Below are positions 18 through 63,625 of a stretch of DNA of 64,000 nucleotides, piece after piece (position 1 is the stretch's first letter; each line of letters opens with the position of its first letter). The notes under the pieces are model-generated. The model was given only the letters and a program-made list of their open reading frames with translations. It searched no databases and was not told the origin of the DNA. The position numbers and the translations under genes are program-made. The DNA is taken from NCBI GenBank assembly GCA_900318835.1, contig ONLW01000008.1:1-64000 (forward strand), written 5' to 3'. Source of the stretch: an uncultured Bacteroidales bacterium. GTDB taxonomy: Bacteria; Bacteroidota; Bacteroidia; Bacteroidales; P3.

Positions 18-70
18 CTGTCTTCCACCTACCAACTCCCTACCATCTCCTACCACCGTAGGCCTTGTCC
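18..70. repeat. 11-bp phased intergenic repeat, copy 1 (degenerate)
   Basis: Imperfect member of the family best seen at 55918-56012. Two adjacent 11-mers, CCTACCAACTC and CCTACCATCTC, lead to a short inverted centre (CTAC, four bases, GTAG). The right arm is badly decayed. The rest of 71-230 holds no gene. It has a perfect 14-bp AT-rich palindrome at 139-152 (TATTGTATACAATA) that could be an operator, but nothing else ties it to a regulator. Confidence 0.6.
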
Positions 71-8990: not shown

Positions 8991-9090
8991 ACTAGCCACC
9001 AACTAAGAACTAACTACCTATCAATCACCTATCAACTCCTAACCAACTCCTACCATAGTAGGTGTTGATAGGGGTATGGCAGGACGATGG
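8991..9090. repeat. 11-bp phased intergenic repeat, copy 2
   Basis: Reading from 8991, six 11-mers follow in register, such as ACTACCTATCA, ATCACCTATCA and ACTCCTAACCA. The centre is CTAC-CATA-GTAG, and then units in the opposite sense (AGTAGGTGTTG). It fills most of the gap between the end of the minus-strand sugar operon and the gene at 8886; the stretch 8920-8990 shows nothing else. Confidence 0.8.
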
Positions 9091-9093
9091 TGT

Positions 9094-10881: not shown

Positions 10882-10893
10882 GACTATAATTTA

Positions 10894-12843: not shown

Positions 12844-12872
12844 ATATTCTAGTTTTGTTATTCATTCATTTT

Positions 12873-14135: not shown

Positions 14136-14142
14136 ATTTAGT

Positions 14143-14175
14143 AATTAAGCAGACAGAAGTTAAGTAGTTAAGACA
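14143..14175 (-). repeat. 8-bp-unit tract upstream of wbpA
   Basis: Read on the plus strand it contains ACAGAAG, TTAAGTAG and TTAAGACA, nearly the same words as the tract at 1330-1369 but inverted relative to the gene it precedes. It begins inside the last codons of wbpE (whose C-terminal LTT and stop come from it) and ends 8 bases before the wbpA start. Confidence 0.7.
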
Positions 14176-15260: not shown

Positions 15261-15732
15261 CTACCTTTCCTATTATCTTTGCCGGTACTCCAGCCACTAT
15301 TACATAATCGGGTACATCCTTGGTTACCACGGCGCCAGCCCCCACCATGGCGTGACGACCAATAGTGTGGCCACAGACGATGGTGCAATTGGCACCCAGC
15401 GAGGCTCCTTCGCGCACCAGCGTGCGCTCATATTTTCCCTGTGCCGGACGGTCGAGCCGAGGCATCAGCACATTGGTAAACACACACGAAGGGCCGAGGA
15501 ACACATTGTCCTCAATTTCCACGCCTTCGTAAACCGACACATTGTTCTGGATACGTACCCCATTGCCAATCTTAACATTGGGACCGATATTAACATTTTG
15601 TCCCAATGAACAATTCTCACCCAAGACAGCCCCCTTCTGGATATGGCAGAAATGCCACACCTTGGTACCCCTGCCTAGGGTCACGCCCTCGTCAACATAC
15701 GAGCTCTCATGTATGAATACGTCGTTTACCAT
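15250..15732 (-). CDS. wbpD: left-handed beta-helix N-acetyltransferase, WbpD-like
   Basis: 160 residues built almost wholly of hexapeptide repeats (from about residue 15: [28 protein letters not shown]). The [30 protein letters not shown] end is typical of WbpD/WlbB enzymes. Expected reaction: acetylation of the 3-amino group of UDP-GlcNAc(3N)A with acetyl-CoA. It overlaps wbpB by 7 bases and wbpE by 11, implying translational coupling. Confidence 0.9.
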
Positions 15733-16679
15733 CCGAAGGGGTGTTTTGTTAATGGGAATTTTGCCATGGGGTGATAGTCGCCGATGAGGCCAACAGGCTC
15801 GGCATGACGTATATCATAGACGGTCTGGATGCAGGGCTTGGCCTCGGCGATGCGGAATCCGCGGCCCGCGAGAACCTCCTCATAGCTGCGGGTGTGAAGG
15901 TCGGTGAAGCCATTGCTGAACTCAAACTCCTCGCCGTCAACCAGTATGGCACGGTAGCTGCCAGTATGGCCTTCGGGGAGGTGCTCGCCATTGATGCTGA
16001 GGAAGTAGCGCACTCGCGCTTGGCACAGTTCAAGATAACCCGCCACACGGTCGTGGCTGCTAACATGCACTACACTCTTCCGCACCGGACCAAATATCCA
16101 TTGCAGCATGTCGTAGAAATGCACGCCGATGTTGGTAGCCACACCGCCGCTTTTCTGCACATTGCCCTTCCACGAGGCGTAGTACCAGTTACCACGGGGT
16201 GTAATATATGTCAAATCAACGTCGTAGACCTTACCCTTCGGACCGTTCTCAATCTTCTTCTTCAGCTCGACCACCGACGGATGAAGTCGCAGTTGAAAGA
16301 TGGTGTAGGCCTTGTGGCCAGTCTCATTCTCAATCTGTTCCAGTGCATCGATATTCCACGGACTCAGTACCACGGGTTTCTCGCAGATGACATCGCACCC
16401 CAAGCGAAGACCATAGCGGGTGTGGGCATCGTGGAGGTAGTTGGGCGAGCAGACGGTGAGGTAGTGTATATGGCCTCCGGTGGCCTTCACATGGTTGTTG
16501 TGGCGGTCGAAGAGTTCCTGTTCGGTGAAAAACGAAGCTCGGGGGAAGTAGCTGTCGATAATGCCGACAGAGTCGTTCTTGTCGTAGGCCGCCACCAGGT
16601 TGTTACCAGTCTCCTTGATGGCCTTGAGATGACGAGGGGCGATGTATCCGCCAACCCCTATGAGCGCAAAGTTCTTCAT
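15726..16679 (-). CDS. wbpB: Gfo/Idh/MocA-family 3-dehydrogenase, WbpB-like
   Basis: 317 residues. It has an N-terminal Rossmann fold ([17 protein letters not shown]), the [13 protein letters not shown] motif whose Lys is the usual catalytic residue of the family, and [15 protein letters not shown] in the substrate domain. WbpB oxidises C3 of UDP-GlcNAcA with recycling of bound NAD. It overlaps rfbD by 4 bases and wbpD by 7. Its place in a wbpB-D-E-A gene row supports the role. Confidence 0.9.
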
Positions 16680-17533
16680 CTGTTGATGTTTTTAAGGCAG
16701 ACCGTCAAACTGTCGGTCCAGTAAGGTATGGTTTTGTGGAAAGTATCTTTGTATTTTGTCTTGTCGAGCACCGAGTAGGCCGGGCGCTTGACGGGGCTGG
16801 GGAATTCGTTGCTGTGACACGGCATGATGTTGCAATCCGTGTAACCACTCTGGCGGGCAATCTCCTTGGTGAAGTCAAACCAACTGCAGACTCCCTCGTT
16901 GCTGAAATGGAAAATCCCCTGATGGTTGCGGAAAGCCTCCTCCTCGATGATGTCGAAGATGGCACGTGCCAGGTCACCGGCATAGGTAGGTGTGCCCACT
17001 TGGTCGAAAACCACCTTCAACTCGGACCGGGTGGCCGTGAGGTTGAGCATAGTGAGCAGGAAGTTCTTCCCATATTCGCTATAGAGCCATCCAGTACGGA
17101 AAATCAGATGGTTGCAGCCCATGGCAGCCTGCTCGCCAGCCAACTTGGTGCGGCCATAGGCGCCAGTGGGGTTGCTGGGTTCGTCCTCGCGGCAGGGAGT
17201 ATTGCTGGGGTTGCCGCCAAAGACATAGTCGGTGGAGATGTGGATCAGCATGCCGTCGGCACCTTTCATGGCCTCAGCCAAGTAGCCCACAGCCTCGGCA
17301 TTGATGCGCAGGGCAATGCTTTCTTCACTTTCGGCACGGTCGACATTGGTGTAGGCAGCACAGTTGACAACCAGCTGTATTCCGTTTTTGGTCACAAAGT
17401 CAAGCACCGCCTCACGCGACGTGATATCCAACTCGGCCACGTCGGTAAAGAGCCATGTGTGCTTCGACTGCGGCGCCAGCAATCGCATGTGGGTGCCGAG
17501 CTGTCCGTTTGAGCCTGTGACCAGAATATTCAT
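16676..17533 (-). CDS. rfbD: dTDP-4-dehydrorhamnose reductase RfbD
   Basis: 285 residues, normal for the family, which performs the last NAD(P)H-dependent step to dTDP-L-rhamnose. ILVTGSNGQLG is the nucleotide-binding motif, NCAAYTNVDRAE is typical of RmlD, and the catalytic YGRTKLAGE (YxxxK) is complete. It follows rfbC with 4 bases between them and overlaps wbpB. Confidence 0.95.
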   Translation of the reverse strand: MNILVTGSNGQLGTHMRLLAPQSKHTWLFTDVAELDITSREAVLDFVTKNGIQLVVNCAAYTNVDRAESEESIALRINAEAVGYLAEAMKGADGMLIHISTDYVFGGNPSNTPCREDEPSNPTGAYGRTKLAGEQAAMGCNHLIFRTGWLYSEYGKNFLLTMLNLTATRSELKVVFDQVGTPTYAGDLARAIFDIIEEEAFRNHQGIFHFSNEGVCSWFDFTKEIARQSGYTDCNIMPCHSNEFPSPVKRPAYSVLDKTKYKDTFHKTIPYWTDSLTVCLKNINR

Positions 17534-17537
17534 TGCT

Positions 17538-18095
17538 TTAGAATGGCGTTACAAATTCGTTAAAAGTTGGATGGTGACTGTCTTTCTCCGAGAGGAGCAC
17601 GTCGCCCTTGGGCAAGCGCCAGTCAATGGCCAGCGCGGGGTCGTCCCAGGCGATGGCACCCTCGGCCTCGGGGTGGTAGTATTCGTCGCATTTGTACTGA
17701 AACACCACCTCGTCGCTCAGTACGGCGAAACCATGGGCCATACCCTTGGGGAGGAAGAGCTGGCGATGATTCTCGCCAGTGAGTTCCACCGCCACATGCC
17801 GCCCGTAGGTAGGCGAGCCTTTTCGAATGTCGACGGCCACGTCGAGCACCGTGCCACTCACCACCCGTACCAGTTTGGCTTGTGCAAAAGGCGGCTTCTG
17901 GAAATGCAGGCCTCGCACCACGCCGTAGCGCGACTTCGACTCGTTGTCCTGCACGAAAGTCACTTGCATGCCCGTCTGCTCGGCGAAGTCACGCACACTG
18001 AAACTCTCAAAAAAGTATCCTCGGGCGTCGCCAAAGATGCGGGGTTCAATTATCTTTACACCTTCTATCTCAGTATCAATCACGTTCATTGTCAA
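17538..18095 (-). CDS. rfbC: dTDP-4-dehydrorhamnose 3,5-epimerase RfbC
   Basis: 185 residues, a single RmlC cupin. It shows [13 protein letters not shown], the catalytic His in [33 protein letters not shown] and the [13 protein letters not shown] segment. It overlaps the end of rfbA by 20 bases. Confidence 0.95.
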
Positions 18096-18960
18096 CCAAT
18101 TTCACTAAATATTGTCCGTATTGGTTCTTAAGCATGGGCTGCGCCACACGGCGCACATCGTCGGCCGAAAGCCACCCCTGCTCGTAGCCAATGCTCTCGA
18201 GGCAGGCCACCTTCAGGCCCTGACGTTTCTCGATGACCTCGATAAAGGTCGAAGCCTCGGCCAGCGAATCGTGGGTGCCGGTGTCGAGCCAAGCGAAACC
18301 GCGTCCCATAAGTTGCACGTTGAGCTCACCGTCTTTAAGGAATTCCTGATTGACAGAGGTGATCTCCAATTCGCCACGGGCGCTGGGCTTGATACTCTTG
18401 GCCACTTCAACCACCTTGTTGGGGTAGAAATAAAGACCCACCACGGCATAATTGCTCTTGGGTTCCTTGGGTTTCTCCTCGATGGAGAGCACACGGCCGT
18501 TCTCGTCGAACTCAGCCACACCGTAGCGCTCAGGGTCAGCCACCCAGTAGCCAAAGACCGTGGCCTTCTTGTCCTGCTCGGCCGAAGCCACTGCCGTACG
18601 CAGCATCTTGCTCAATCCATTGCCATGGAAAATATTGTCTCCCAGCACCAAACACGCCGAATCGTCACCAATAAATTCCTCGCCAATGATGAAAGCCTGC
18701 GCCAAACCGTCGGGAGAGGGCTGCTCGGCATAAGAGAAATGCACACCGAAGTCGCTACCGTCGCCCAGCAGGCGGCGAAATCCCGGCAAGTCGTGCGGGG
18801 TGGAGATGATAAGTATGTCGCGGATGCCGGCTAGCATCAGCACCGAGATGGGATAGTACACCATCGGCTTGTCATAAATGGGCAGCAACTGCTTGCTGAC
18901 ACCCTTGGTAATAGGGTATAAACGTGTGCCGGAACCTCCGGCCAGTACAATGCCTTTCAT
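18076..18960 (-). CDS. rfbA: glucose-1-phosphate thymidylyltransferase RfbA
   Basis: 294 residues, normal length. It has the nucleotidyltransferase motif [20 protein letters not shown] and the [17 protein letters not shown] signature of RmlA. It makes dTDP-glucose from dTTP and glucose-1-phosphate. First gene of the minus-strand sugar operon. The expected next enzyme, RfbB (4,6-dehydratase), is not encoded in this window. Confidence 0.95.
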
Positions 18961-19048
18961 TCTTTTTCCTTTTTCCTATATTAAAATAAGCCCAGTCCAA
19001 ACTCATACACAAACACTTACAATTTACGTCACATGGAGGCTGGAAATG

Positions 19049-19056
19049 CAAATTTA
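19049..19056 (-). promoter_or_regulatory. possible -7 element TAAATTTG of the rfbA operon
   Basis: On the minus strand TAAATTTG fits TAnnTTTG and lies 89 bases before the rfbA start. No clear TTTG -33 box at 19 bases, so this is a weak call. Confidence 0.4.
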
Positions 19057-19150
19057 CATAAATTTTCCGAATAATGCACCCCGAACCCAAAATTATTTTA
19101 CAAACCCAGAAAAACCTCCGTACGGAAACACTGGTATTCAGCATTTCACC

Positions 19151-19216
19151 GTCAGTTGTCCGTTAGTTGTCCGATGTTTTATTGGACAACTAACGGACAA
19201 ATAACGGACAACGAAT
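19151..19216. repeat. 11-bp phased inverted element between divergent polysaccharide operons
   Basis: Six exact 11-base steps: GTCAGTTGTCC, GTTAGTTGTCC, a central GATGTTTTATT, then GGACAACTAAC, GGACAAATAAC and GGACAACGAAT. The inner arms (19156-19172 and 19184-19200) are a perfect 17-bp inverted repeat with an 11-base loop. It has the same architecture as the CTACCAAC family but a different word. It sits between the rfbA operon and the promoter at 19293, so it may be a regulatory site for both. Apart from the two promoters, the remaining gap 18961-19336 shows nothing else clear. Confidence 0.8.
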
Positions 19217-19292
19217 GTACAACAGAGAGACCAGACAGGGGAAGCCTGAGAGTGCCTCGCGGATTTTTTTTCCCATATATAAAAAAAAGTTG

Positions 19293-19300
19293 TATCTTTG
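19293..19300 (+). promoter_or_regulatory. -7 element TATCTTTG of the SLBB export operon
   Basis: Good TAnnTTTG match, 36 bases before the ATG at 19337, followed by CAG as often seen at Bacteroidetes starts. The -33 position is a T-run (19264-19271). Confidence 0.7.
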
Positions 19301-19336
19301 CAGTTCAATATCGTATACTAGAAAACATACAACATA

Positions 19337-22300
19337 ATGAAAAAGACGTTATTACTGGCTTTAATGTTCTTTGCGCTTCCCTTAGTGTCGCTGGCGCAGA
19401 GCCCCAACATGATGGCAATGGCCCGTGCCGAACTGCAGAAACGAGGGCTTGAAGAAACCGAAGTACGTGCCCGCCTGTTGCAAGAAGGCATCGACGTGGA
19501 CAACATTTCCCCCACCGAATATGCCAACTATCAGGATCGCGTCACCTCCATCCTGAACAAGATGCAGGCCGAGAAGGCTGCCGCCAAGGCGACCCTCACC
19601 GAAGCCACCCCCGCCGCTGCCGCCACCGAAGTCTCCAATATCTCGACTGCCACTTCGACCGCCTCCGGCACAGCGCTTATCGCCACTGCCGCCAGCGAGG
19701 CCCAATCCCCCAACGATTTCCCGCAAACAACCGCGGGTGAGGCTGCCGCTGAGGAAGCTTTGGAAGAAACCCTGAAAGAGAACCATGTCTCCAAAACTGC
19801 TGGCGACGACATCTATGGTCACTCCCTCTTCACTGGCACCTCGATGGATGTGTTCCGCACCACCGACGGAGCCCAAGCCCCTGACACCTACGTACTCGGT
19901 GAAGGTGACGAGATACACATCTCCATTTTCGGTTCATCGCAAACCGAAATACACCAACGCATTGCAGCCGACGGCTCCATCCAGCCTGCCGGTTCCTCCA
20001 AGATATTCCTCAAAGGAATGACCCTGGCCCAAGGACGCATGGCCATCCAGAACAAGCTGAGCCAGCACTACTCCTTCCGCCCCGACCAGATTGCCGTCAC
20101 CATTACCACCGCCCGCACCGTGAGAGTGAGCATCTATGGTGAGGTGGGCGTGCAGGGAGGTTTCACCCTCAGTGCCCTCAACACCGCTTTCAACGCCCTG
20201 GCTGCCGCTGGTGGTCCCACCGCCATCGGTTCTATCCGCAACATCATGCGCTCCCGTGGCACCAAGACCGATCGCCTTGACCTCTATCAATACATGACCG
20301 GCAAGAGCAAGGACATGCTGTTCGACCTCCAGAATGGCGACGTAATCTTCGTTCCTGTGGCCAACAACATCGTGAGTATCGAAGGCGCAGTCCGCCGCCC
20401 CATGCGTTACGAAATGATTGATGGCGAGAGCCTCAAAGACCTCATCGAATACGCCGGTGGCCCCACCTACGATGTCTACCCCGACTTCGTCCAGATTGAA
20501 CGCCGCGAAAATGACGAAATCAAATATCTGGAATACAACCTTGACAAGGTTCTCTCCGGCAAAGATGTTGTCACCCTGAAGGGTGGTGATGTGGTCCGCA
20601 TCAAGAATTCCAACCGCCCAATGGAGAACTATGTTGCCATCCGCGGTGATGTCTACTATGGTGGCAATTTCGACCTGCGCCAGAACAGCAGCCTCATCAA
20701 ACTTCTGGAGAAAGTGCAGCCCCGCTACACAGCCCGCAGAGATTATGTCTATGTGGAGCGCACCAGCCCCGATGAGACCGTCGAGTTCCTCACCATTCCC
20801 TTCCCTGGCGAAAACGGCAATCCCGACTTTACGCTGCAAGCCCGCGATGTCGTCACTGTTCTTGCTCAGGACAGCTACCTCGAGAAATGGGACATTGCTG
20901 TCTCCGGTGAGGTCCGTCATCCCTTCACCCGCACTTTCGGCCTTAACGACCAGATGACCCTCGGCCAAGCCATTGAATATGCTGGCGGTGCCACCCACAC
21001 GGCCCGCACCGACTATGTCTATGTGGAGCGTACCCGTCCCGACTTAACCGTCGAGGTTCTCACCCTCCCCTACCCCTCCGACAACAATGATGCCGCCAAC
21101 TTCCAGCTGCAAGCCAAGGACAGAGTGCGTGTGCTCAGCCTCGCCTCCTTCCGCGATGAGGACGAGATCTCCGTCAGCGGCCAAGTTCGCGAACCTTTCA
21201 CCCGCACTTTCGGCCTCAACGACCGCATGACAGTGGCACAAGCCATTGAATATGCCCACGGTCTCAAGCAGAGCGTATTCCCCGTGGCCTACATTGTCCG
21301 TCGCGACCTCACCAATCCCGTCAAGCGTCAGTACATCCGTGTCGACCTCGACAAAGATGGCGAGACCCTGCTGCAACCTGGTGACCGTCTGAACATCTAC
21401 GACAACACCACCTACACCAACGTGGGCGAGGTGCGTGTTAGCGGTGCCGTAAAGAACCCCATGGGCACCACCTACGACCCCTCCCTCACGCTGCACGACC
21501 TGTTGATGATGGCCGGTGGCTTCGCTGTGGGAGCCGCCTACGACCGCGTGGAAGTGTTCCGTCTCAATATTGATAAAAAGAAAGAAGTCGAACTGGAGCT
21601 CCTCACCCTCACCGTCGACGAGAACTACAATATCGTCGAAACCAAGAAATCCCCCAAAGACTTCCAGCTGCAGCCCTTTGACCACGTCGTGGTACGTATG
21701 ACCCCCAACTACACAACAGGGCGCTATGTCGAGGTGAACGGCCGTGTGAGATATCCCGGCACATATGTCCTCGAGGACAATGAGACCCAGCTCTGGCAAA
21801 TCATCAAGAAGGCCGGTGGCCTCCTCGACGATGCCGAACCCCACTCCATCCTTTTCCGCACCAAAGGCCGCTTCAACGGCAACATCGCCATCAACCTCGA
21901 CAAGGTGAAGAAGCGCAAAGGCAACATGAAAAACAACCCCATCCTGATGGACGGCGACGTCATCACCATCCCTCGTCGCGAGAATACGGTGGTTATCCGT
22001 GAGACTGGTACCCGCATGGCTCAGTATGTGCCGGCCGAGTTCGCCTCCACCCAGAAGAACATCGTCTACCACGGTTCGCATACCGCCGCTTGGTATATCA
22101 AACATTTTGCCGGTGGATTTGATAAGAATGCCGACCGCAGAAGTGTCACCGTCACCCTGCCCAACAATGAAACCAAAGCCACCCGTCGCTTCCTATTCTT
22201 CCGCCGCACCCCCAAAGTAGAGCCCGGTAGCGTCATCACTGTGCGTATGGATGCGAAAAAGATTGAGAAGGAATCGCAGCCCAAAGAAAAGGTCGACTGG

Positions 22301-22393
22301 GGCGCAGAGATTTCAAAGATGCTGAGCTCGGTCACCTCAATCATGTCTGTCATTCTCCTTGTCAACAGTTTTAGCAAATTAAACAACAACTAA
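19337..22393 (+). CDS. large SLBB-domain polysaccharide export protein (Wza-related)
   Basis: 1018 residues. A signal peptide (ends SLAQ, residue 21) and an Ala/Thr-rich low-complexity stretch (about 75-150) come before the polysaccharide-export domain (YVLGEGDEIHISIFG, about 181-195) and at least five SLBB modules to about residue 880. Two neighbouring modules are near-copies at about 90-residue spacing (PFTRTFGLND twice, DYVYVERT twice), pointing to recent tandem duplication. One membrane segment close to the C-terminus (about 995-1013) is unusual for classic Wza. It probably forms the periplasmic/outer-membrane conduit for an exopolysaccharide. The Wzz-like gene follows 8 bases later. Confidence 0.85.
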   Translation: MKKTLLLALMFFALPLVSLAQSPNMMAMARAELQKRGLEETEVRARLLQEGIDVDNISPTEYANYQDRVTSILNKMQAEKAAAKATLTEATPAAAATEVSNISTATSTASGTALIATAASEAQSPNDFPQTTAGEAAAEEALEETLKENHVSKTAGDDIYGHSLFTGTSMDVFRTTDGAQAPDTYVLGEGDEIHISIFGSSQTEIHQRIAADGSIQPAGSSKIFLKGMTLAQGRMAIQNKLSQHYSFRPDQIAVTITTARTVRVSIYGEVGVQGGFTLSALNTAFNALAAAGGPTAIGSIRNIMRSRGTKTDRLDLYQYMTGKSKDMLFDLQNGDVIFVPVANNIVSIEGAVRRPMRYEMIDGESLKDLIEYAGGPTYDVYPDFVQIERRENDEIKYLEYNLDKVLSGKDVVTLKGGDVVRIKNSNRPMENYVAIRGDVYYGGNFDLRQNSSLIKLLEKVQPRYTARRDYVYVERTSPDETVEFLTIPFPGENGNPDFTLQARDVVTVLAQDSYLEKWDIAVSGEVRHPFTRTFGLNDQMTLGQAIEYAGGATHTARTDYVYVERTRPDLTVEVLTLPYPSDNNDAANFQLQAKDRVRVLSLASFRDEDEISVSGQVREPFTRTFGLNDRMTVAQAIEYAHGLKQSVFPVAYIVRRDLTNPVKRQYIRVDLDKDGETLLQPGDRLNIYDNTTYTNVGEVRVSGAVKNPMGTTYDPSLTLHDLLMMAGGFAVGAAYDRVEVFRLNIDKKKEVELELLTLTVDENYNIVETKKSPKDFQLQPFDHVVVRMTPNYTTGRYVEVNGRVRYPGTYVLEDNETQLWQIIKKAGGLLDDAEPHSILFRTKGRFNGNIAINLDKVKKRKGNMKNNPILMDGDVITIPRRENTVVIRETGTRMAQYVPAEFASTQKNIVYHGSHTAAWYIKHFAGGFDKNADRRSVTVTLPNNETKATRRFLFFRRTPKVEPGSVITVRMDAKKIEKESQPKEKVDWGAEISKMLSSVTSIMSVILLVNSFSKLNNN

Positions 22394-22401
22394 CCACACG
22401 T

Positions 22402-23577
22402 ATGGAAGAAAATATCAACAAAGCCAACACTCCCGACGAGGAGAAGGAAGGCCTTGATATCATGGCCATGGTGCGTAGCCTGTGGGACGGTCGCAAGACT
22501 ATTTTCATCACCCTGGGCATTTTCTTTGCCTTGGGACTCATTGCCGCCTTGACAATGAAACGCACCTATACAGTCCAAACCGTGATGGTGCCCCAGATGG
22601 GAAACGATGCAAAATCAGGCCTGGGTGGTTTGGCAGCACTGGCAGGCTTCGACTTGGGCGCCACTAACAACAATGGTGAGCTCTCGCCCCTCGTCTACCC
22701 GCAGATAGTGAACAGCACGCCCTTCCGTCTCAGTATGATGCACACCCCGCTGCACTACCAAAAGTCAGACACTCTCATCAGTATGTTCGACTATGCTATG
22801 TCCGACTACGAAAAGCCCTCCGTGTTCTCCTACATACTGAAATACACCATTGGTCTGCCGGGTGTCATTATCGGTTCGCTCCGCAGCAAGCCGGAGGAGA
22901 TTGTATACCCCAACGCGAACAGCAGAAAAGATGAGAAAGACTTTCGGCCGATAGTGGTAAGCCTTGATGAACAGCAGATGTTGGAGAAAATGGGTCAAGT
23001 CATCTCGCTCAATGTTGACAAGAAGGAAGGTTACATCACCCTTACCGTCAATGGCTCCGAACCCGTGCAGACAGCCGAACTTGCCCTGAGAGCCCAAAAG
23101 TTGCTTGAGACCGAGATAACACGCTTCCGCACCGAGAAATCGCAGAGCGAATTAGATTATATCCAGGCCCGTTACGACGAGGCCAAAGCCGAAGCCGACC
23201 GCTATCAGTCGGCTTGGGCCTCGACAACCGACCGCTCTCAGTTCCTGACCACAACGAGTGCCACTATCAGCAAAGCCCGCCTGCAAACGAAGTTCAACGT
23301 CGCCAACAGCGTCTTCATGGAGATGGCCAAGCAATTGGAACAAGCCAAGATGAAAGTCAAAAAGGACACCCCGACATTCTCCATCATCCAGCCTGTCACC
23401 CTTCCCACCAAGCCCTCCAATAGCCGTGCCAAGACCCTCATCGTCTGGCTCTTCCTTGGAGGTGTTATAGGTTGCGGAATCGTACTCGGCAAAGGCTACT
23501 GGCCCAAGGCAAAAGCCATGTTCAAGAAACCTGAGATCGAGGAAAAAGAAAAGAAAACAGAAGAAGAGAAAAAGTAA
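22402..23577 (+). CDS. Wzz-like chain-length determinant protein
   Basis: 391 residues. There is an N-terminal membrane helix (about 34-52), a periplasmic Wzz domain with predicted long coiled helices (about 195-310), the PxxPxxP-like TLPTKPSNSRAK before a second helix (about 340-362), and a charged Lys/Glu-rich cytoplasmic tail. No ATPase domain is fused, unlike the Wzc protein at 51824. It likely pairs with the SLBB protein just upstream to set chain length or build the export channel. Confidence 0.85.
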   Translation: MEENINKANTPDEEKEGLDIMAMVRSLWDGRKTIFITLGIFFALGLIAALTMKRTYTVQTVMVPQMGNDAKSGLGGLAALAGFDLGATNNNGELSPLVYPQIVNSTPFRLSMMHTPLHYQKSDTLISMFDYAMSDYEKPSVFSYILKYTIGLPGVIIGSLRSKPEEIVYPNANSRKDEKDFRPIVVSLDEQQMLEKMGQVISLNVDKKEGYITLTVNGSEPVQTAELALRAQKLLETEITRFRTEKSQSELDYIQARYDEAKAEADRYQSAWASTTDRSQFLTTTSATISKARLQTKFNVANSVFMEMAKQLEQAKMKVKKDTPTFSIIQPVTLPTKPSNSRAKTLIVWLFLGGVIGCGIVLGKGYWPKAKAMFKKPEIEEKEKKTEEEKK

Positions 23578-23580
23578 GTC

Positions 23581-24588
23581 GTGCCTTTCGTCCGCGATAT
23601 ATTACATTATAACAGTCTTTCCATCGTAGGTCTTGAAAAGAATACCGGAAAGACTGTTTGCCTTAATTATATATTGAATAGGCTCAACGACATGGGAGTG
23701 CATGTCGGAGTCACCTCCATCGGAGTCGACGGAGAGCAGGTGGACGCCGTCTTCGCCACCGCCAAGCCCGAGATCACCCTCTTCCGTGGCACCCATTTCA
23801 TCACCTCCGAAAAGCACTACCTCGTCCGGCAGGCCGTCAGCAAGCTGGTGGCCGTCGACAGTCAGCGCACCTCGCTCGGCCCACTGGTCACGGCCGAGGT
23901 GCTCATCCAAGGAAAAGTTCTCCTTTCGGGAGCTGCCACCACAGCAGTGCTCAAGCGACAGATACAAGGCTTTAGCCACCTGGGTGTCGACCTCTCCATC
24001 GTCGACGGCGCACTCTCGCGCCTCAGCCTGGCCTCTCCCACCGTCACCGAGGCCATGATCCTCGCCACTGGTGCCGCTGTATCGGCCAATGTCAAGCAAC
24101 TCATCGCCAAGACCAAGTTTCTCCACTCCCTCATCCTCCTCGACGAGGTGGGCGCCGCCTTGCGCGAGCGCCTCGTCACCATTCCCTCGGGACTCTGGGC
24201 CATCGATGACGAAGGCCAGCCACACGACCTCGGCATCGCCTCCGTCTTCCTCATCGACAAAGCCGAGAAAGACATCCTCCGCTTTGGCAAGACCCTCTTC
24301 GCCTCTGGCGCCGTGAGCGACCGCCTGCTCCGTATTCTCGCGGCGAAGGACAAGGGCATCACGCTGATAGCGCGCGACTTCACCAAATTCTTCCTCACTC
24401 CAGAAACCCATGTGGAATTCACCCGTCGCGGCGGACGCCTCATGGTCCTGCAGCGTTCCCGTCTTATCGCCGTCACACTCAACCCCACCTCGCCGCAAGG
24501 TTTCCTCTTGGACAGCAAATCCACCTGCGATGCCCTCAGCGACGCACTCCAAACCCCCGTCTACGACGTAAAAAAGATTGACCAATGA
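23581..24588 (+). CDS. kamB: KamB-like subunit of aminomutase reactivase
   Basis: 335 residues starting at GTG (23581), 3 bases after the Wzz gene. The N-terminal GLEKNTGKTVCLN (residues 17-29) is a P-loop-like motif. The rest resembles the protein encoded beside MutS-like KamC in lysine 5,6-aminomutase and ornithine 4,5-aminomutase gene clusters, where the pair is thought to reactivate the B12 enzyme. The stop overlaps the next gene's start by 4 bases. No aminomutase gene is in the window, so the role is inferred from family recognition only. Confidence 0.55.
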   Translation: MPFVRDILHYNSLSIVGLEKNTGKTVCLNYILNRLNDMGVHVGVTSIGVDGEQVDAVFATAKPEITLFRGTHFITSEKHYLVRQAVSKLVAVDSQRTSLGPLVTAEVLIQGKVLLSGAATTAVLKRQIQGFSHLGVDLSIVDGALSRLSLASPTVTEAMILATGAAVSANVKQLIAKTKFLHSLILLDEVGAALRERLVTIPSGLWAIDDEGQPHDLGIASVFLIDKAEKDILRFGKTLFASGAVSDRLLRILAAKDKGITLIARDFTKFFLTPETHVEFTRRGGRLMVLQRSRLIAVTLNPTSPQGFLLDSKSTCDALSDALQTPVYDVKKIDQ

Positions 24589-25970
24589 GAATCAAAGACC
24601 TGATAAAAAGCGACGCTGGTTTCCAGTTTGTCATCGACAACATGGAATTCATGTCCGCTGCCGGACGGCGCAAAATGCTGGACACCGAGTTCCTCACCGA
24701 CCCCACCGCACTGCAGACCGAATGGGACCGTTTAGAAAGCGCCATCCGGGCCGTCCGCGAATACAAATACAAGAAGCCCTACATCGAGCTGCGCCACTGC
24801 CTGATGTGTCTGCACGACCTTCAGGGCACCCTCGGCCACCTGGCCAACCACACCACCCTCAACGAAGTGGAACTCTTCGAAATCAAAAATCTCGCCCAAC
24901 TGGCTCAAACCGCCACCGGTGCCATAGCCGAGGTGGGGCTTGCTGATATGCTGCCCTTGCCCGACACTACAGAAGTATTCGCCATTCTCGACCCCGACCA
25001 CACAGGCATCGCCAACTTCTACATCTATGACAGTTACGACATCCGCCTCGCACCCCTGCGTCGCGAGCTCAACGGCCTGCAGACCTCCGGAGGCGATCCC
25101 GTGCGCATCAGCGAACTGCTGGCCGAACAGAGCGAGATACAGAACGAGGTCTGCATCCACCTCTCCGACCAACTTGTCCAGTGGACAGAGGTGCTTGTAA
25201 CCACCATGGAACAAATGGCCTATGCCGACTTCCTGCTGGCCAATGCCGAACTGGCCATCCAGTGGACGCTGACACGCCCGAAGCTGGGCGACCATATCGA
25301 ATACACCGACCTTTTCAACCCGCGCCTCAAGAAACGCAACGAGGAGATGCACCTGCGCTACCAGCCTGTCAGCATTGCGATCCGCCCCGGTGTATGCCTC
25401 GTCACCGGTGCCAACATGGCCGGCAAGACCGTATTGCTCAAGAGCATCGGCACCTCCCAGACAATGGCCCAGTGCGGCATGTATGTGCCGGCCAAAGAAG
25501 CCATGGTAAAGCTGGTTGAAGGCGTAGCCACCTCCATCGGCGACGACCAAGACGAGATGAACGGTCTTTCCTCCTACGCCTCCGAGATTATCAAAATCAG
25601 CAACATACTCTCCGACTGCCGTCAGCACGAGCTGCTGGTGCTCATCGACGAACCCGCCCGCACCACCAACCCCGTCGAGGGAAAAGCCCTAGTACAGGCC
25701 ATCATCAAGATTCTCGAACAGTGTCCATCGTTCACCCTCATCACCACCCACTACGGCCAGCTGGGTTCCACCTGCCGTCGCCTCAGGGTGAAGGGCTTCG
25801 TCGAGGACATGGACAACATCCCACTTACCCCGCAAAGCATCAACCGTTTCATCGACTACTCCCTCACCGAGGACCAAAGCGACAATGTGCCCCACGAGGC
25901 TCTCCGCATCGCCACCATCCTCCAGTGCGACCCTGAGATGATAGCCCTCGCGTCGGAACAGATACAATAA
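24585..25970 (+). CDS. kamC: MutS-like ATPase, KamC-type reactivase
   Basis: 461 residues, far shorter than mismatch-repair MutS (about 850). It keeps only the helical lever-like region (about 20-255) and the ABC ATPase: Walker A in GANMAGKTVLLKS (about 275-287), the SSYASEI signature-region equivalent, Walker B VLIDEPARTTNP, and the TTHYGQL His loop. There is no mismatch-recognition domain, so DNA repair is unlikely. The coupling to the KamB-like gene (4-base overlap) fits the lysine 5,6-aminomutase reactivase ATPase. A hairpin terminator follows at once. Confidence 0.65.
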   Translation: MRIKDLIKSDAGFQFVIDNMEFMSAAGRRKMLDTEFLTDPTALQTEWDRLESAIRAVREYKYKKPYIELRHCLMCLHDLQGTLGHLANHTTLNEVELFEIKNLAQLAQTATGAIAEVGLADMLPLPDTTEVFAILDPDHTGIANFYIYDSYDIRLAPLRRELNGLQTSGGDPVRISELLAEQSEIQNEVCIHLSDQLVQWTEVLVTTMEQMAYADFLLANAELAIQWTLTRPKLGDHIEYTDLFNPRLKKRNEEMHLRYQPVSIAIRPGVCLVTGANMAGKTVLLKSIGTSQTMAQCGMYVPAKEAMVKLVEGVATSIGDDQDEMNGLSSYASEIIKISNILSDCRQHELLVLIDEPARTTNPVEGKALVQAIIKILEQCPSFTLITTHYGQLGSTCRRLRVKGFVEDMDNIPLTPQSINRFIDYSLTEDQSDNVPHEALRIATILQCDPEMIALASEQIQ

Positions 25971-25971
25971 G

Positions 25972-26002
25972 AAAAAGGAGGCCTTATCAGTCTCCTTTTT
26001 TT
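25972..26002. terminator. bidirectional hairpin terminator
   Basis: AAAAAGGAG and CTCCTTTTTT arms around an 11-base loop, with A-run before and T-run after. It ends the SLBB-Wzz-Kam transcript and also stands just past the tRNA-Ser 3' end on the other strand. Confidence 0.85.
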
Positions 26003-26005
26003 CAG

Positions 26006-26093
26006 CGGAAAGGAGGGGATTCGAACCCCTGAAGCGCTGTTAACGCTTACTCGCTTTCCAGGCGGGCCTCTTCAACCACTCGAGCACCTTTCC
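26006..26093 (-). tRNA. tRNA-Ser (anticodon GGA)
   Basis: 88 nt on the minus strand. Acceptor GGAAAGG pairs with CCTTTCC plus discriminator G; the D arm contains GAGTGGTTGAAGAG, the anticodon loop is CTGGAAA, there is a long class II variable arm (AAGCG/CGCTT), and the T arm is GGGGTTCGAATCCCC. CCA is not encoded. The anticodon stem has one C-A mismatch (CCCGC against GCGAG). Confidence 0.95.
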
Positions 26094-26171
26094 ATTCTTC
26101 CTCTAACCAAATCATCCAAATCCTTCCGAATTTCAGTTTCTATCGATTTTTTCGGTTAGCGAAATCGGGTG

Positions 26172-26202
26172 CAAAAGTACAACTTTTTTTCGATATGACA
26201 AA
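26172..26202 (-). promoter_or_regulatory. promoter of tRNA-Ser
   Basis: On the minus strand TTTG (26199-26202), 19 bases, then TACTTTTG (26172-26179): an exact Bacteroidetes promoter layout pointing toward the tRNA. Confidence 0.7.
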
Positions 26203-26209
26203 AAAAATG

Positions 26210-26217
26210 TATCTTTG
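26210..26217 (+). promoter_or_regulatory. -7 element TATCTTTG of the M49-like peptidase gene
   Basis: TAnnTTTG match 42 bases before the ATG. Its T-rich -33 position (26184-26190) lies inside the divergent tRNA promoter. Confidence 0.7.
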
Positions 26218-26259
26218 TAGATTGAAACAATAAGCAAAAAACCTTAAAACATATTAATA

Positions 26260-27897
26260 ATGAAAAAGTTAATAATTTGCGCTATGGCTATTTCAATGTT
26301 AGCCGCCATGGGCTGCAAAGGCAAAAAAGCAGCCGAAGAGAAGTTGGAAATCCAACAAAAAGTGGATGAGTATGCCGAGTTCGAACTCAAATCCGACCTC
26401 ATTCAGAACCTTTCCGCCAATGAAAAGGAGCTGGTGAAAATCTTTATCGAAATCGGCAAAGTGATGGACGACATCTACTGGGACCAATATTTCGGCAATG
26501 AGAACCGTGCCAGCCTCGACACCATCAGCGATCCTGCCATCCGCGCCTTCGCCAACATCCAGTACGGCGCCTGGGACCGTCTTGACAGCGAGATGCCATT
26601 CATCCCTGGCTACGGCGAACGTCCCGCAGGCTGCAACTTCTACCCCAAGGACATGACCCGCGAGGAATTCGACGCCCTTGAGGACCCGCTAAAGAACAGC
26701 GAGTACAGCGTCATCCGCCGCGACGAGAACGGCAAACTCTACGTCCTCCCCTACCACGAGGCCTACAAGGAGCAGCTCGCCAAAGTTGACGTCCTCATGG
26801 AGAAAGCCATCGCTCTGGCCGAAAACCCCGGTTTGAAGAAATACCTTGAGGCACGCCGCGAGGCCTTCCGCACCGACGACTACTTCAACTCCGACATGGT
26901 GTGGATGGACATGAAAGACAGCAAGCTCGACTTCGTCGTCGGCCCCATCGAGAACTACGATGACGGCATCAACGGTCTGAAATGCAGCCACGAAGCTTTC
27001 GTCCTTGTGAAAGACGAACAGTGGAGCAACGACCTCAGCAAGTTCGCCGCCCTCCTGCCCGAGATGCAGAAACTCCTTCCCTGCGACGAGAAATACAAGA
27101 AAGAGGTGCCCGGCACCGACTGCGACATCAACGTCTACGACGTGGTCTATTACGCAGGCGACTGCAATGCGGGTTCCAAAACCATTGCCATCAATCTGCC
27201 CAACGACGAGCGCGTGCAGCTCAAGAAAGGCTCCCGCCGCCTCCAGCTCAAGAACGCCATGCAGGCCAAATTCGACAACATCATGGTGCCCATCGCCAAG
27301 CTGATGGTCTGCCCCGAACAGGTCGACAGCGTCACCTTCAACGCATTCTTCGGAAACACCTGCTACCACGAAGTGGCCCATGGCCTGGGCATCAAGAACA
27401 CCGTCACCGGCCGTGGTCCCTGCCGTCAGGCCCTGGGGGCCCAGTACAGCGCCTGGGAGGAAGCCAAAGCCGACGTCTGCGGCCTCTTCCTCACCGAGCA
27501 GCTCATCAACCGTGGCCTCATCACCAACACCACTGTCAACCAGAACTACATCACCTTCATCGCAGGCATCCTCCGCAGTGTCCGCTTCGGTGCCACCGAG
27601 GCTCACGGCGTAGCCAACATCATGTGCTACAACTTCTTCGAGCAGGCCGGTGCCTTCACCCGCAATGCCGACGGCAAGTATGTCATCAACGTGGAGAAAG
27701 CCCGCGAGGCCGCCCGCGCCTGGGCCTCCCTCATCATCGCCATGGAAGGCGAGGGCGACATGGCTGCCGCCAAAGACTACAGCGACAAGAATGGCAAGAT
27801 CGGCAAAGCCCTCCAGAAAGACCTCAATGCCATCCGCGATGCCAACATCCCGCGCGACATCATCTACAAACAGGGTGCCGAGGTGCTGGGTTTGTAA
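26260..27897 (+). CDS. lipoprotein zinc peptidase of the M49 (dipeptidyl peptidase III-like) family
   Basis: 545 residues. The N-terminal signal has a lipobox ending at Cys19 (LAAMGC), so it is a membrane-anchored envelope lipoprotein. Zinc site: HEVAH at residues 370-374 and EEAKAD at 400-405, the latter corresponding to the EECRAD motif of M49. The pentapeptide HEXXH, rather than the classic HEXXGH, is known in some bacterial M49 enzymes. Expected activity is removal of dipeptides from peptide N-termini. It is monocistronic, with its own promoter and a following hairpin. Confidence 0.8.
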   Translation: MKKLIICAMAISMLAAMGCKGKKAAEEKLEIQQKVDEYAEFELKSDLIQNLSANEKELVKIFIEIGKVMDDIYWDQYFGNENRASLDTISDPAIRAFANIQYGAWDRLDSEMPFIPGYGERPAGCNFYPKDMTREEFDALEDPLKNSEYSVIRRDENGKLYVLPYHEAYKEQLAKVDVLMEKAIALAENPGLKKYLEARREAFRTDDYFNSDMVWMDMKDSKLDFVVGPIENYDDGINGLKCSHEAFVLVKDEQWSNDLSKFAALLPEMQKLLPCDEKYKKEVPGTDCDINVYDVVYYAGDCNAGSKTIAINLPNDERVQLKKGSRRLQLKNAMQAKFDNIMVPIAKLMVCPEQVDSVTFNAFFGNTCYHEVAHGLGIKNTVTGRGPCRQALGAQYSAWEEAKADVCGLFLTEQLINRGLITNTTVNQNYITFIAGILRSVRFGATEAHGVANIMCYNFFEQAGAFTRNADGKYVINVEKAREAARAWASLIIAMEGEGDMAAAKDYSDKNGKIGKALQKDLNAIRDANIPRDIIYKQGAEVLGL

Positions 27898-27929
27898 TAT
27901 TTCATTAACATAATTTTAACAATTCTACT

Positions 27930-27966
27930 GAGGGAGCCTCCATTTCCGGGGCTCCCTCACTCGTTT
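27930..27966 (+). terminator. hairpin terminator after the M49-like gene
   Basis: Perfect 9-bp arms GAGGGAGCC (27930-27938) and GGCTCCCTC (27950-27958), 11-base loop, then a short T-rich stretch. Confidence 0.75.
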
Positions 27967-27978
27967 TCATAAGGTTAC

Positions 27979-28060
27979 ACTACCTACCATCACCTTATCA
28001 ACTCCCTACCAACTCCTACCCAACTCCTACCACAGTAGGTATTGATAGGTCGTTCGACAG
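27979..28060. repeat. 11-bp phased intergenic repeat, copy 3
   Basis: Units such as CTACCTACCAT, CTCCCTACCAA and CTCCTACCCAA in 11-base register, a short inverted centre, then AGTAGGTATTG and ATAGGTCG in the opposite sense. The arms are imperfect (two mismatches in the inner ten pairs). Confidence 0.75.
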
Positions 28061-28276: not shown

Positions 28277-28465
28277 CAGTAGACTTTCCATGTATTCCAA
28301 AAAACACTAGATACTGGAAATGATAGGGTTGCGGCAACGCCCTTGGACAGGGGTGCCCGTGAATCGGAGCATGAACAACCGATGAACCTGCCAGAAACTC
28401 CAGCTATTGTGCTGGAGGAGAGGGAGAATTGCCCCTATCACAAGTCCACAGACAAACACCAAAAG
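28277..28465 (+). promoter_or_regulatory. structured 5' leader of the polysaccharide operon
   Basis: About 190 transcribed bases before the likely UpxY start. Visible hairpins are GTTGCGGCAAC near 28330 and a perfect CTCCAGC/GCTGGAG stem at 28398-28404 and 28411-28417 with a 6-base loop. In Bacteroides capsule operons the UpxY antiterminator acts on such a leader; no known recognition word was identified here. The frame is open from 28343, so an N-terminally extended UpxY is the alternative. Confidence 0.5.
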
Positions 28466-28948
28466 ATGTCAGAAGAGCCCCTACACTGGTACGCCCTCAA
28501 GGTATTCTACAACAAAGTGCAGCCACTGATAGCCGACTGCAAAGAGGTGGCTTTGGAGTTTTTCGCTCCTGTGGAGGTCATCCAATCCCTGCTGTTCCTC
28601 CATTGTACCGAGGCTGAACTCGTAGAATTTATGGCCGACCATCAGCAGGGTGTGTTTGTCTACCGTCAAGCCGCCAGCCGCCAGCCGGCAGCCATTCCCG
28701 ACCGCGAGATGGAGGTGTTCCGCTTCGTGGTGACGGCTGGCCAGCAGGGGCTTACCCTCCTTGGCGACGACCGTCCGGAGTATCACCAAGGCGACCGTGT
28801 GGTGGTGACCGACGGCCCCTTCAAGGGTGCCGAGGGCCACATCAAACGCATCAAGAAAGACCGCCGCCTGGTGGTGACCATCCCCGGCATAGTGGCCGTA
28901 GCCACCGCCTACATCCACCCGGACCTGCTTCGCAGGGTAACCGAGTAA
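28466..28948 (+). CDS. UpxY-like NusG-family transcription antiterminator
   Basis: 160 residues from the ATG at 28466. NGN domain begins at HWYALKVFYNKVQ; the C-terminal KOW domain contains GDRVVVTDGPFKGAEGHIKRI. UpxY proteins ride with RNA polymerase to let it read through long capsule operons. First gene of the plus-strand glycan locus, 8 bases before the sugar transferase. An in-frame ATG at 28343 would add 41 residues unlike NusG; the shorter form fits the family, in which W lies about ten residues from the start. Confidence 0.85.
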   Translation: MSEEPLHWYALKVFYNKVQPLIADCKEVALEFFAPVEVIQSLLFLHCTEAELVEFMADHQQGVFVYRQAASRQPAAIPDREMEVFRFVVTAGQQGLTLLGDDRPEYHQGDRVVVTDGPFKGAEGHIKRIKKDRRLVVTIPGIVAVATAYIHPDLLRRVTE

Positions 28949-32104: not shown

Positions 32105-32203
32105 CCGAGGGTAAGAGGAGGACAAGAAGAGAGGTAGATGATGGTAAGATGACTCGAAGATGTAACGTAGATCTAACGGTGATGTAACGGTGATTCACGC
32201 TAC
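32105..32203 (+). repeat. one-directional 11-bp array in the nucleotidyltransferase-wzt gap
   Basis: Nine consecutive 11-base units without a gap, from CCGAGGGTAAG through ATGATGGTAAG, ATGACTCGAAG and ATGTAACGTAG to ATGTAACGGTG and ATTCACGCTAC. Most end in AAG, TAG or GTG. No open frame of note is in the 233-base gap 32055-32287, which otherwise holds a small hairpin (ACGCT/AGCGT at about 32197-32212) and the octamer tract. Confidence 0.75.
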
Positions 32204-37300: not shown

Positions 37301-37376
37301 CTTACCAACTCCTACCCAACTCCTACCATAGTAGGAGTTGATGGGGAGATGACAGGGGGATGGTAGGTCGATCAAC
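37301..37376. repeat. 11-bp phased intergenic repeat, copy 4
   Basis: Inner arms CAACTCCTAC (37317-37326) and GTAGGAGTTG (37331-37340) around CATA, flanked on the right by 11-base units ATGGGGAGATG, ACAGGGGGATG and GTAGGTCGATC. It lies inside the glycan operon, between two glycosyltransferase genes of the same direction. Confidence 0.8.
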
Positions 37377-48000: not shown

Positions 48001-48090
48001 GTACATACACTTACCAACTACCTACCAACACCCTACCAACTCCTACCGTGGTAGGAGTTGGTAGGGTGTTGGTAGGGCGATAATAGGTAG
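48001..48090. repeat. 11-bp phased intergenic repeat, copy 5 (27-bp perfect arms)
   Basis: Perfect inverted arms 48021-48047 and 48050-48076 separated by GT. Each arm is made of 11-base units (CACCCTACCAA type on the left, TTGGTAGGGTG type on the right). It fills the 99-base gap between the acetyltransferase and the DUF354 gene. Confidence 0.9.
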
Positions 48091-55850: not shown

Positions 55851-55889
55851 AGGCCGGAATCCCACCCTACGGATTTCAGCCTTTTTTTG
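55851..55889 (+). terminator. intrinsic terminator of the polysaccharide locus
   Basis: Stem of twelve positions (AGGC and GGAATCC arms with one mismatch and one wobble), 8-base loop, then seven T. Confidence 0.85.
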
Positions 55890-55917
55890 TTAACAAACCT
55901 TAACACCCTCTTGCCCC

Positions 55918-56012
55918 AATCACCCTACCATCCCCCTACCAACACCCTACCAACTCCTACCATGGTAGGAGTTGGTAGGGTGTTGGTAGGGAGTTAACAG
56001 GTTGTTGACAAT
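55918..56012. repeat. 11-bp phased intergenic repeat, copy 6 (58-bp perfect palindrome)
   Basis: Positions 55934-55991 are a perfect 58-bp palindrome with no spacer, centre between 55962 and 55963 (CCTACCA/TGGTAGG). Outside it the 11-base rhythm continues on the right (TTAACAGGTTG, then TTGACAATTAG) and on the left (CACCCTACCAT). It stands between convergent operons. Confidence 0.95.
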
Positions 56013-56030: not shown

Positions 56031-56072
56031 AAAAAGGGGTCGCGGAATGGATTTCTGCCCATTCCGCGACCC
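56031..56072 (-). terminator. intrinsic terminator of the ompH operon
   Basis: Perfect 14-bp stem (56037-56050 with 56059-56072) and an 8-base loop. On the minus strand it is followed by five T (56035-56031). It lies 23 bases past the stop of the gene at 56096. Confidence 0.9.
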
Positions 56073-56095
56073 TAAATTTTGTTAAACGGAATATC

Positions 56096-63540: not shown

Positions 63541-63625
63541 ATCACCCTACCATCGTCCTACCATCACCCTACCAACTCCTACCGCGGTAGGAGTTGGTAG
63601 GGTGATGGTAGGTGATTGTCAGGCA
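63541..63625. repeat. 11-bp phased intergenic repeat, copy 7 (56-bp perfect palindrome)
   Basis: Positions 63557-63612 are a perfect 56-bp palindrome centred on CCG/CGG. Units ATCACCCTACC and GGTAGGGTGAT replace the AACACCCTACC/GGTAGGGTGTT of copies 5 and 6, a paired change in both arms. The rhythm continues outside (ATCGTCCTACC left, GTCAGGCAGTT right). Confidence 0.95.

Follow-up and report, generated by a model that had tools for sequence, protein, structure and literature searches.

MatP/matS is a system in which one protein organises a chromosome by reading a dispersed motif. The matS motif is about 13 bp long, conserved in sequence and confined to the terminus. The BIME and REP sequences of enterobacteria are palindromic intergenic repeats that are present in hundreds of copies. 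REPs are described as short stem-loops, most GTAG stems being 6–9 bp long, with a GTAG or CGTC tag at one end, and the GTAG REPs are reported to be linked to RAYTs (PMC3733652). One BIME, placed in a test cassette, is reported to slow the diffusion of supercoils, which makes BIMEs candidates for barriers between domains; the barriers of E. coli are described as randomly placed, and what forms bacterial supercoil-diffusion barriers is listed as an open question (PMC6907758). The parC site of the ParMRC system is described as an array with a step close to one helical turn (11 bp in R1), whose repeats are read by ParR and vary in sequence between systems (PMC9426499). The DUS of Neisseriaceae are presented as species-specific versions, or dialects, of one short motif family (PMC3630211).

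The elements described here come from an uncultured Bacteroidales bacterium, from a 64-kb stretch (the window, C15:1-64000) of a 2.34-Mb draft genome in 43 contigs. This genome is called G000, and that of a sister species G009. Like BIMEs and REPs, the elements are intergenic palindromes with many copies, but they are 11-bp-phased, evenly spaced and conserved in position, and they are present in G009, which has no Y1 transposase match. GTAG or CTAC occurs in all 82 copies of G000, but it sits within the repeated units and not at the end as in a REP. With parC the elements share arrays of helical-turn-spaced repeats and a sequence that varies between systems. However, the repeats of parC are usually direct ones, carried by a plasmid and upstream of parM, whereas here there are many inverted arrays on a chromosome. 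No ParM (PF06406) was matched in any of 61 genomes, and the control genomes were also without a match. DUS are short single motifs in thousands of copies, in contrast to the 82 multi-unit phased arrays, evenly spaced, in 856 kb of G000. Species dialects are the one feature that the class has in common with uptake sequences: GGTCCG pairs number 455 in one relative (G010) and 3 in another (G020), and are absent from the other 35 of 37 genomes. The confinement, length and sequence conservation of matS set it apart from the present elements. A literature search among open papers, judged by titles and the starts of abstracts, yielded no description of the class, in agreement with the original prediction, which knew of none. 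We rate the class as categorically new; its architecture, spacing and positions are shown by the data, and the protein and the function are inferred.

Architecture and copy number of the elements

The original prediction listed seven copies in the window of a centre-symmetric intergenic element built from degenerate 11-bp units. All seven GGTAGG-type elements were found where it placed them, and they read as it described. Two more 11-bp arrays (19134-19222 and 32106-32200), as well as the results on spacing and conservation, go beyond it. The features of the window are as follows:

18..70, no strand: GGTAGG-type element, dyad near 55
8991..9090, no strand: GGTAGG-type element, dyad 9055, arms asymmetric
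19134..19222, no strand: second-class 11-bp element, unit of GTTGTCCGATA type, in a divergent gap
27979..28060, no strand: GGTAGG-type element, dyad 28032
32106..32200, no strand: 11-bp-phased array, unit of GATGTAACGGT type, mostly direct repeats, in the polysaccharide gene cluster
37301..37376, no strand: GGTAGG-type element, dyad 37328, in a 136-bp gap between co-directional glycosyltransferase genes
48001..48090, no strand: GGTAGG-type element, dyad 48048, in a 99-bp gap
55856..55890, + strand: terminator-like stem and T run, 3' of an OmpA-like gene, upstream of the 55918 element
55918..56012, no strand: the GGTAGG-type element given, dyad 55962, in a convergent gap between OmpA-like and OmpH/Skp-like genes
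56036..56073, - strand: terminator-like hairpin of the convergent OmpH-like gene
63541..63625, no strand: GGTAGG-type element, dyad 63584

The element at 55918..56012 is flanked by the two converging terminator-like hairpins. The array at 32106-32200 is absent from the orthologous gaps of G010 (5 bp) and G035 (4 bp). An Rfam scan of the window returned only a tRNA.

A 150-bp profile was seeded on exact CCTACC..GGTAGG centres and iterated, giving the centre CTCCTACC-NN-GGTAGGAG. It finds 79 copies in 856,178 bp of G000; a first-order Markov shuffle gives none, even with the threshold lowered to 8. Rescanning with tolerance for stretch edges gives 82 copies in the same G000 sequence and 39 in 398,661 bp of G009, densities that are biased upward since the stretches were picked for containing a seed. 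This search bears out that the window's copies belong to a larger family. The unit consensus is TTGRTAGGNNG, and an average element is made of about eight arm units and a centre, or about 110 bp. When 61 genomes were searched for the exact 15-mer CTACCAACTCCTACC, it was found 61 times in G000, 135 times in G009 and one to five times in five other genomes of the genus, but not in the remaining 54; the reversed control was absent from all 61. Among named genomes, at least 80 stretches carry the element; those listed belong to ten MAGs of uncultured Bacteroidales or Bacteroidetes, including one titled roe-deer rumen and one titled goat reticulum. Viral contigs gave no match to one exact centre pattern.

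Identity within arms is highest at a lag of 11 (0.54), followed by 22 (0.46), and does not exceed 0.374 at any other lag from 5 to 23, so the predicted 11-bp phase holds in autocorrelation. A sequence-agnostic score of period and inverted phase, at a threshold of 9, finds 79 windows with period 11 in G000, compared with 2, 7, 1, 4, 0 and 1 for periods 8, 9, 10, 12, 13 and 14. The phase also continues past the perfect palindrome, as had been claimed: the random 95% point is exceeded in 100% of arms by unit 1, 99% by unit 2, 87% by unit 3, 50% by unit 4 and 29% by unit 5 (117 of 121 copies, those near a stretch end or scoring below 40 being left out).

If selection acted on pairing, the two arms would change together. 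Arm–arm agreement in G000 is not above shuffle (z -0.9, -2.7 and -4.3 for units 1, 2 and 3), and neighbouring units of the same arm agree beyond shuffle (z 4.8, 6.2). The arms of G000 therefore do not co-vary as those of a common hairpin would. In G009 the arm–arm values are 2.9, 0.4 and -4.7, the unit 1 signal being mainly at the free position, and the same-arm values are 3.2 and 4.7. These z values are inflated, since each copy was entered in both orientations; the set comprised 78 of 82 copies (G000) and all 39 (G009) after dropping those with a score of 40 or less or an N in the core, and 73 and 37 after removing near-identical copies. When six window copies (every GGTAGG-type copy but 18-70) were folded as DNA, three proved strong, with z from -9 to -10, and the other three only slightly better than their shuffles (z about -2). 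For the copy of the second class, at 19134, z is -7, and some elements are near-perfect hairpins. An RNA or cruciform hairpin as a common feature is unsupported by covariation and folding, though some copies fold strongly. Phased A-tracts were also considered and rejected, A4/T4 runs being found inside only 15 of 117 copies compared with 105 of 117 equal-sized flanks.

Spacing along the chromosome and gene context

The elements are evenly spaced in both genomes. In contiguous segments of G000, 41 intervals have a mean of 10.29 kb and a CV of 0.352, the shortest being 4,547 bp; in G009, 22 intervals have a mean of 10.72 kb and a CV of 0.389, the shortest being 4,403 bp. Random draws of an equal number of sites from gaps of at least 150 bp have a CV of 0.78 (G000) or 0.75 (G009), and none of 2000 draws in either genome was as even. 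Draws from gaps that resemble transcription-unit boundaries gave 0.765 ± 0.072 and 0.781, and none of 5000 each was as even. Intervals below 4.4 kb number zero in each genome vs 9.0 (G000) and 5.5 (G009) expected, a result matched by none and two of 5000 simulations, respectively. The test is conditional on the elements that are present.

In the window, the second-class element at 19134-19222 divides the 19-kb interval from 9055 to 28032. Elsewhere in G000, two intervals remain unfilled, one of about 20 kb and one of about 22 kb. Fourteen arrays were identified by architecture only (score at least 7, discarded if another period scored within 2 units), some of which score only 7.1–7.7 and may be chance. 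With these added, the CV becomes 0.418 in G000 (49 intervals, four below 4.4 kb, shortest 960 bp) and 0.444 in G009 (26 intervals, three below 4.4 kb, shortest 316 bp), an evenness that is still reached by none of 5000 simulations in either genome. Separate pattern searches gave position lists, in part of exact matches only, with contigs that had a single site dropped. Among the matches listed, none of 45 G000 intervals is below 4 kb vs 9.8 expected. In UBA2939, again among the matches listed, the shortest of 24 intervals is 10.6 kb (p 0.0003), and the absence of intervals below 4 kb vs 2.0 expected falls short of significance by itself (p 0.095). G010 gives a less clear signal, two of 23 intervals among the matches listed being below 4 kb vs 5.1 expected (p 0.05). 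The CVs of these lists (0.81 in G000, 0.75 in UBA2939 and 0.98 in G010) are not comparable with those of the complete segments. Evenness does not separate insulation from other needs for regular sites.

Genes were predicted with our own codon-usage caller. The 121 copies of G000 and G009 lie in 54 tandem, 42 divergent and 15 convergent gaps, with nine at stretch edges and one that touches a weak predicted gene. For the 111 copies with both neighbours, about 64 tandem, 37 divergent and 10 convergent gaps are expected by gap length, and the gap types are thus occupied in proportion to their length. The placement at operon ends in the original prediction was too narrow, as all gap types are used.

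TAnnTTTG is the -7 motif of Bacteroidetes. For 138 gene starts that face an element, the motif lies between element and start in 82 (shuffle 18, antisense 10), inside the element in none and beyond it in five. A terminator lies ahead of the element for 30 of 84 stops that face it (shuffle 0.2). The elements are thus placed on the far side of the recognisable promoters and terminators. The motif is about equally frequent in element-free gaps (102 of 164 starts), so promoters are not special to element gaps, and what the context data show is which side of the promoter or terminator an element occupies. The copies at 37301 and 48001 are exceptions: both occupy short gaps within the polysaccharide cluster, and transcription probably runs across them. 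From the dyad to the -7 box the median distance is 140 bp (range 46–735 bp), and the helical phase of 82 promoters has a resultant of 0.083 vs 0.110 by chance. A promoter operator was rejected on these grounds, there being neither a fixed distance nor a fixed phase to the promoter. Among elements in tandem gaps of G000 and G009, 31 have their longer arm pointing against transcription and 13 with it; the orientation results, and those on arm length (r -0.22, p 0.01), are weak and no conclusion is drawn from them.

Conserved positions and other units in the genus

G000 and G009 share 193 reciprocal best hits with a median protein identity of 85.7%. Among 126 comparable gaps between adjacent genes, 12 have an element in both genomes, 114 in neither and none in one only. 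The identity of orthologous elements is 0.91 at the centre and declines to 0.54 outside them, and gap openings number 3 per 891 bp inside elements vs 38 per 2,523 bp in the rest of the gap; both figures come from 11 of the 12 pairs, one weak pair being left out. In several orthologous pairs a change in one arm has its counterpart in the other. The element at 48001..48090 is also present in the orthologous G009 gap, with both arms changed in a matched way.

Arrays with an 11-bp phase and other unit sequences are found elsewhere in the genus. At a threshold of 9, the period-11 score that gives 79 windows in G000 gives 42 in G009, 30 in 20 genomes of the same genus (734 kb) and 1 in 20 genomes of other families (352 kb). 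For the other periods from 8 to 14, counts reach at most 7, 3, 20 and 3 in these four sets, respectively, the 20 of the same-genus set being period 9 and made up of simple 7- to 9-bp arrays. The stretches from twenty genomes of other families have no excess of 11-bp arrays, which are thus restricted to one genus among the genomes sampled. G000 itself holds more than one unit class, such as GGTAGG and GTTGTCCG. The units are CTCCGAC/GTCGGAC and GTAGTATTACG in G012, GTTTAACG and ACGGTG in G002, CTTCGGCC in G022 and ATATATAGCAC in G025. The G000 profile has no match on the G010 stretches, where 47 matches by architecture are of the GGTCCG (30), CCTAAGC (11) or other (6) type, most of these stretches having been picked for containing a seed. 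The CCTAAGC arrays of G010 are head-to-tail and lack centre symmetry; on L229, L205, L271, L274 and L276 they are interleaved with the GGTCCG class. The 455 GGTCCG pairs of G010 (218 + 237) compare with no reversed pair in the same genome and one each in G017 and G018.

Some positions are occupied by a different unit in different species. Six reference gaps have an array at a shared place with a differing unit. The gap of the 55918-56012 element has GTTTAACG units in G002 and GGTCCG in G010. The gap at L037:3775 has GGTAGG in G000, GTCGGAG in G002 and CTTCGGCC in G022, with flanks that can be partly aligned, and the one at L037:15187 has another unit in G022. Three further reference gaps in G010 hold one GGTCCG and two CCTAAGC arrays. 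All comparisons with the other, more distant genomes of the genus taken together give 11 gaps with an array in both genomes, 13 in the reference only, five in the other only and 315 in neither. When gaps are at least 120 bp in both genomes, the counts are 11, 5, 2 and 12 (p 0.004). The 11 shared rows represent seven distinct reference gaps, as the 55918-56012 gap, which is 831 bp long in G007 and 2,624 bp in G035, is counted for four other genomes. At L065:2003-2197 an element is present in G000 and G009, and the corresponding gap of G002 is a near-empty site of 56 bp; the flanking proteins of G002 are 98% identical to those of G000.

Two G012 arrays, at L236:9210 and L278:6503, are near-perfect palindromes of about 100 bp, both with the unit GTAGTATTACG. 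Intergenic arrays of 7-, 8- or 9-bp units, such as TCTAGAAAC, CATAACT and CAACATAT, were seen on L218 (G033), L221-L225 (G002) and L239-L240 (G022), some of them shortly before an ATG.

Proposed docking arrays and rival explanations

The best explanation, which is still a tentative one, is that the elements are evenly spaced docking arrays for a putative, fast-evolving DNA-binding protein that would organise the chromosome. Each subunit would sit on one 11-bp unit, about one helical turn from the next and hence on one face of the DNA, and an oligomer might assemble outward in both directions from the central dyad over the roughly eight arm units and centre (about 110 bp). With an array about every 10 kb, mostly between transcription units, the arrays could act as topological insulators or loop anchors. 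The specificity of the protein may shift between species, with the arrays following by changing their unit sequence in place.

The kept phase, the outward decay of conservation, the lack of arm covariation in G000 and the similarity of tandem units fit inverted arrays of protein sites, and the even spacing and side of placement fit a task at the level of the chromosome. Insulation or anchoring would be preferred, because it calls for sites at regular intervals that are not crossed by transcription, and the finding of a different unit at the same place is in line with arrays that co-evolve with a changing protein. A binding platform with its units on one face was one of three ideas in the original prediction and is the best supported of them, by the kept phase, the lack of covariation in G000 and the fewer gap openings inside (3/891 vs 38/2,523 bp). 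No DNA-bending or nucleoid protein of the kind it proposed was identified, and no candidate binding protein was found, which is counted against docking arrays. So is the limited share of starts (82 of 138) and stops (30 of 84) that carry the expected signal. The looser spacing once the architecture-only arrays are added, the two unfilled G000 intervals, the weaker G010 spacing, the gaps of other relatives with an array in one genome only, the near-perfect hairpins, the positive unit 1 covariation in G009 and the matched arm changes also weigh against it. The several unit classes per genome, among them the CCTAAGC arrays without symmetry, are a real difficulty for a model with one protein.

The wider reading is more doubtful: the genus may divide its chromosome into units of about 10 kb by encoded, even insulator arrays that are rewritten in place as the putative protein changes. 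If true, encoded, even and position-conserved sites mostly outside transcription units would make the barrier question testable. It would also mean that dispersed DNA sites can be rewritten genome-wide between related species with their places kept.

The strongest rival to docking arrays, itself unlikely, takes the elements as operators of a global regulator of the OmpR/PhoB type that binds 11-bp direct repeats head to tail. Direct repeats of 11 bp are the expected site spacing of this family, and a published study of ArcA sites reportedly bears on such spacing. Many copies indeed lie upstream of a promoter, with a median of 140 bp from dyad to -7 box, but this distance varies from 46 to 735 bp without helical phase, 15 of 111 copies are in convergent gaps, and the long inverted arrays and their even spacing also argue against operators. 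A watermark for DNA uptake or recombination, with dialects that differ by species as in the DUS of Neisseriaceae, is slightly less probable. It would account for species-specific units that are numerous in one genome and absent from most relatives, a between-species pattern that DUS dialects are described as showing, but the elements are present at about one copy per 10 kb as opposed to the thousands of DUS reported per genome (PMC3630211), and they are evenly spaced intergenic arrays of about 110 bp. Just as improbable is curved or structured DNA that would pin plectoneme tips without a dedicated protein, so that only the 11-bp phase matters. A phase that is kept as the unit sequence changes, the even spacing and the several unit classes in one genome would all be consistent with such pinning; however, it has no need for a unit consensus within a genome, and the elements are not phased A-tracts (A4/T4 in 15/117 copies vs 105/117 flanks).

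The repeat-building process of the original prediction can be put as a neutral one, in which tandem slippage in 11-bp steps and template switching made the arrays and old sites were inherited. Such a process is possible for the turnover of units, given the likeness of neighbouring units in the same arm (z 4.8, 6.2), and relatives carry intergenic arrays of 7, 8 and 9 bp too. As an explanation of the whole it is no likelier than pinning, since it leaves unexplained the even spacing and conserved positions, the identical 11-bp step in every class seen and the fewer gap openings inside than beside elements. Mobile palindromes of the REP/BIME kind, spread by a transposase, are very improbable. The elements are intergenic palindromes in many copies with GTAG or CTAC in 82 of 82 G000 copies, G000 has two Y1 transposase matches (PF01797), and CGTC REPs without a transposase are reported from Bacteroidetes (PMC3733652). 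Against this, copy-rich G009 has no Y1 match (PF01797) in a genome that is 95% complete, occupied gaps agree between G000 and G009 in 12 of 12 cases, and CGTC or GACG lies within 53 bp of the dyad in six of 82 copies vs 61% of random windows. The RAYT/REP candidate was rejected on the family search and the orthologous positions, and CGTC REPs on the tag. Least likely of all are transcription terminators or RNA hairpins, even with three of six folded window copies that are strong (z -9 to -10) and the near-perfect palindromes of about 100 bp in G012. Intrinsic terminators were rejected on the gap types, 42 of 111 copies being in divergent gaps, and in 30 of 84 cases a separate terminator lies between the stop and the element. 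The lack of arm covariation in G000 and the three of six copies with z about -2 argue against hairpins. The folded RNA of the original prediction is not supported as a common feature, given the weak folding in half of the six copies and the recognisable promoters and terminators on the gene side.

A gene for a KOW-domain, NusG-like protein at 28343-28948 of the window heads the long polysaccharide cluster, with an element upstream of it, and is perhaps a dedicated antiterminator.
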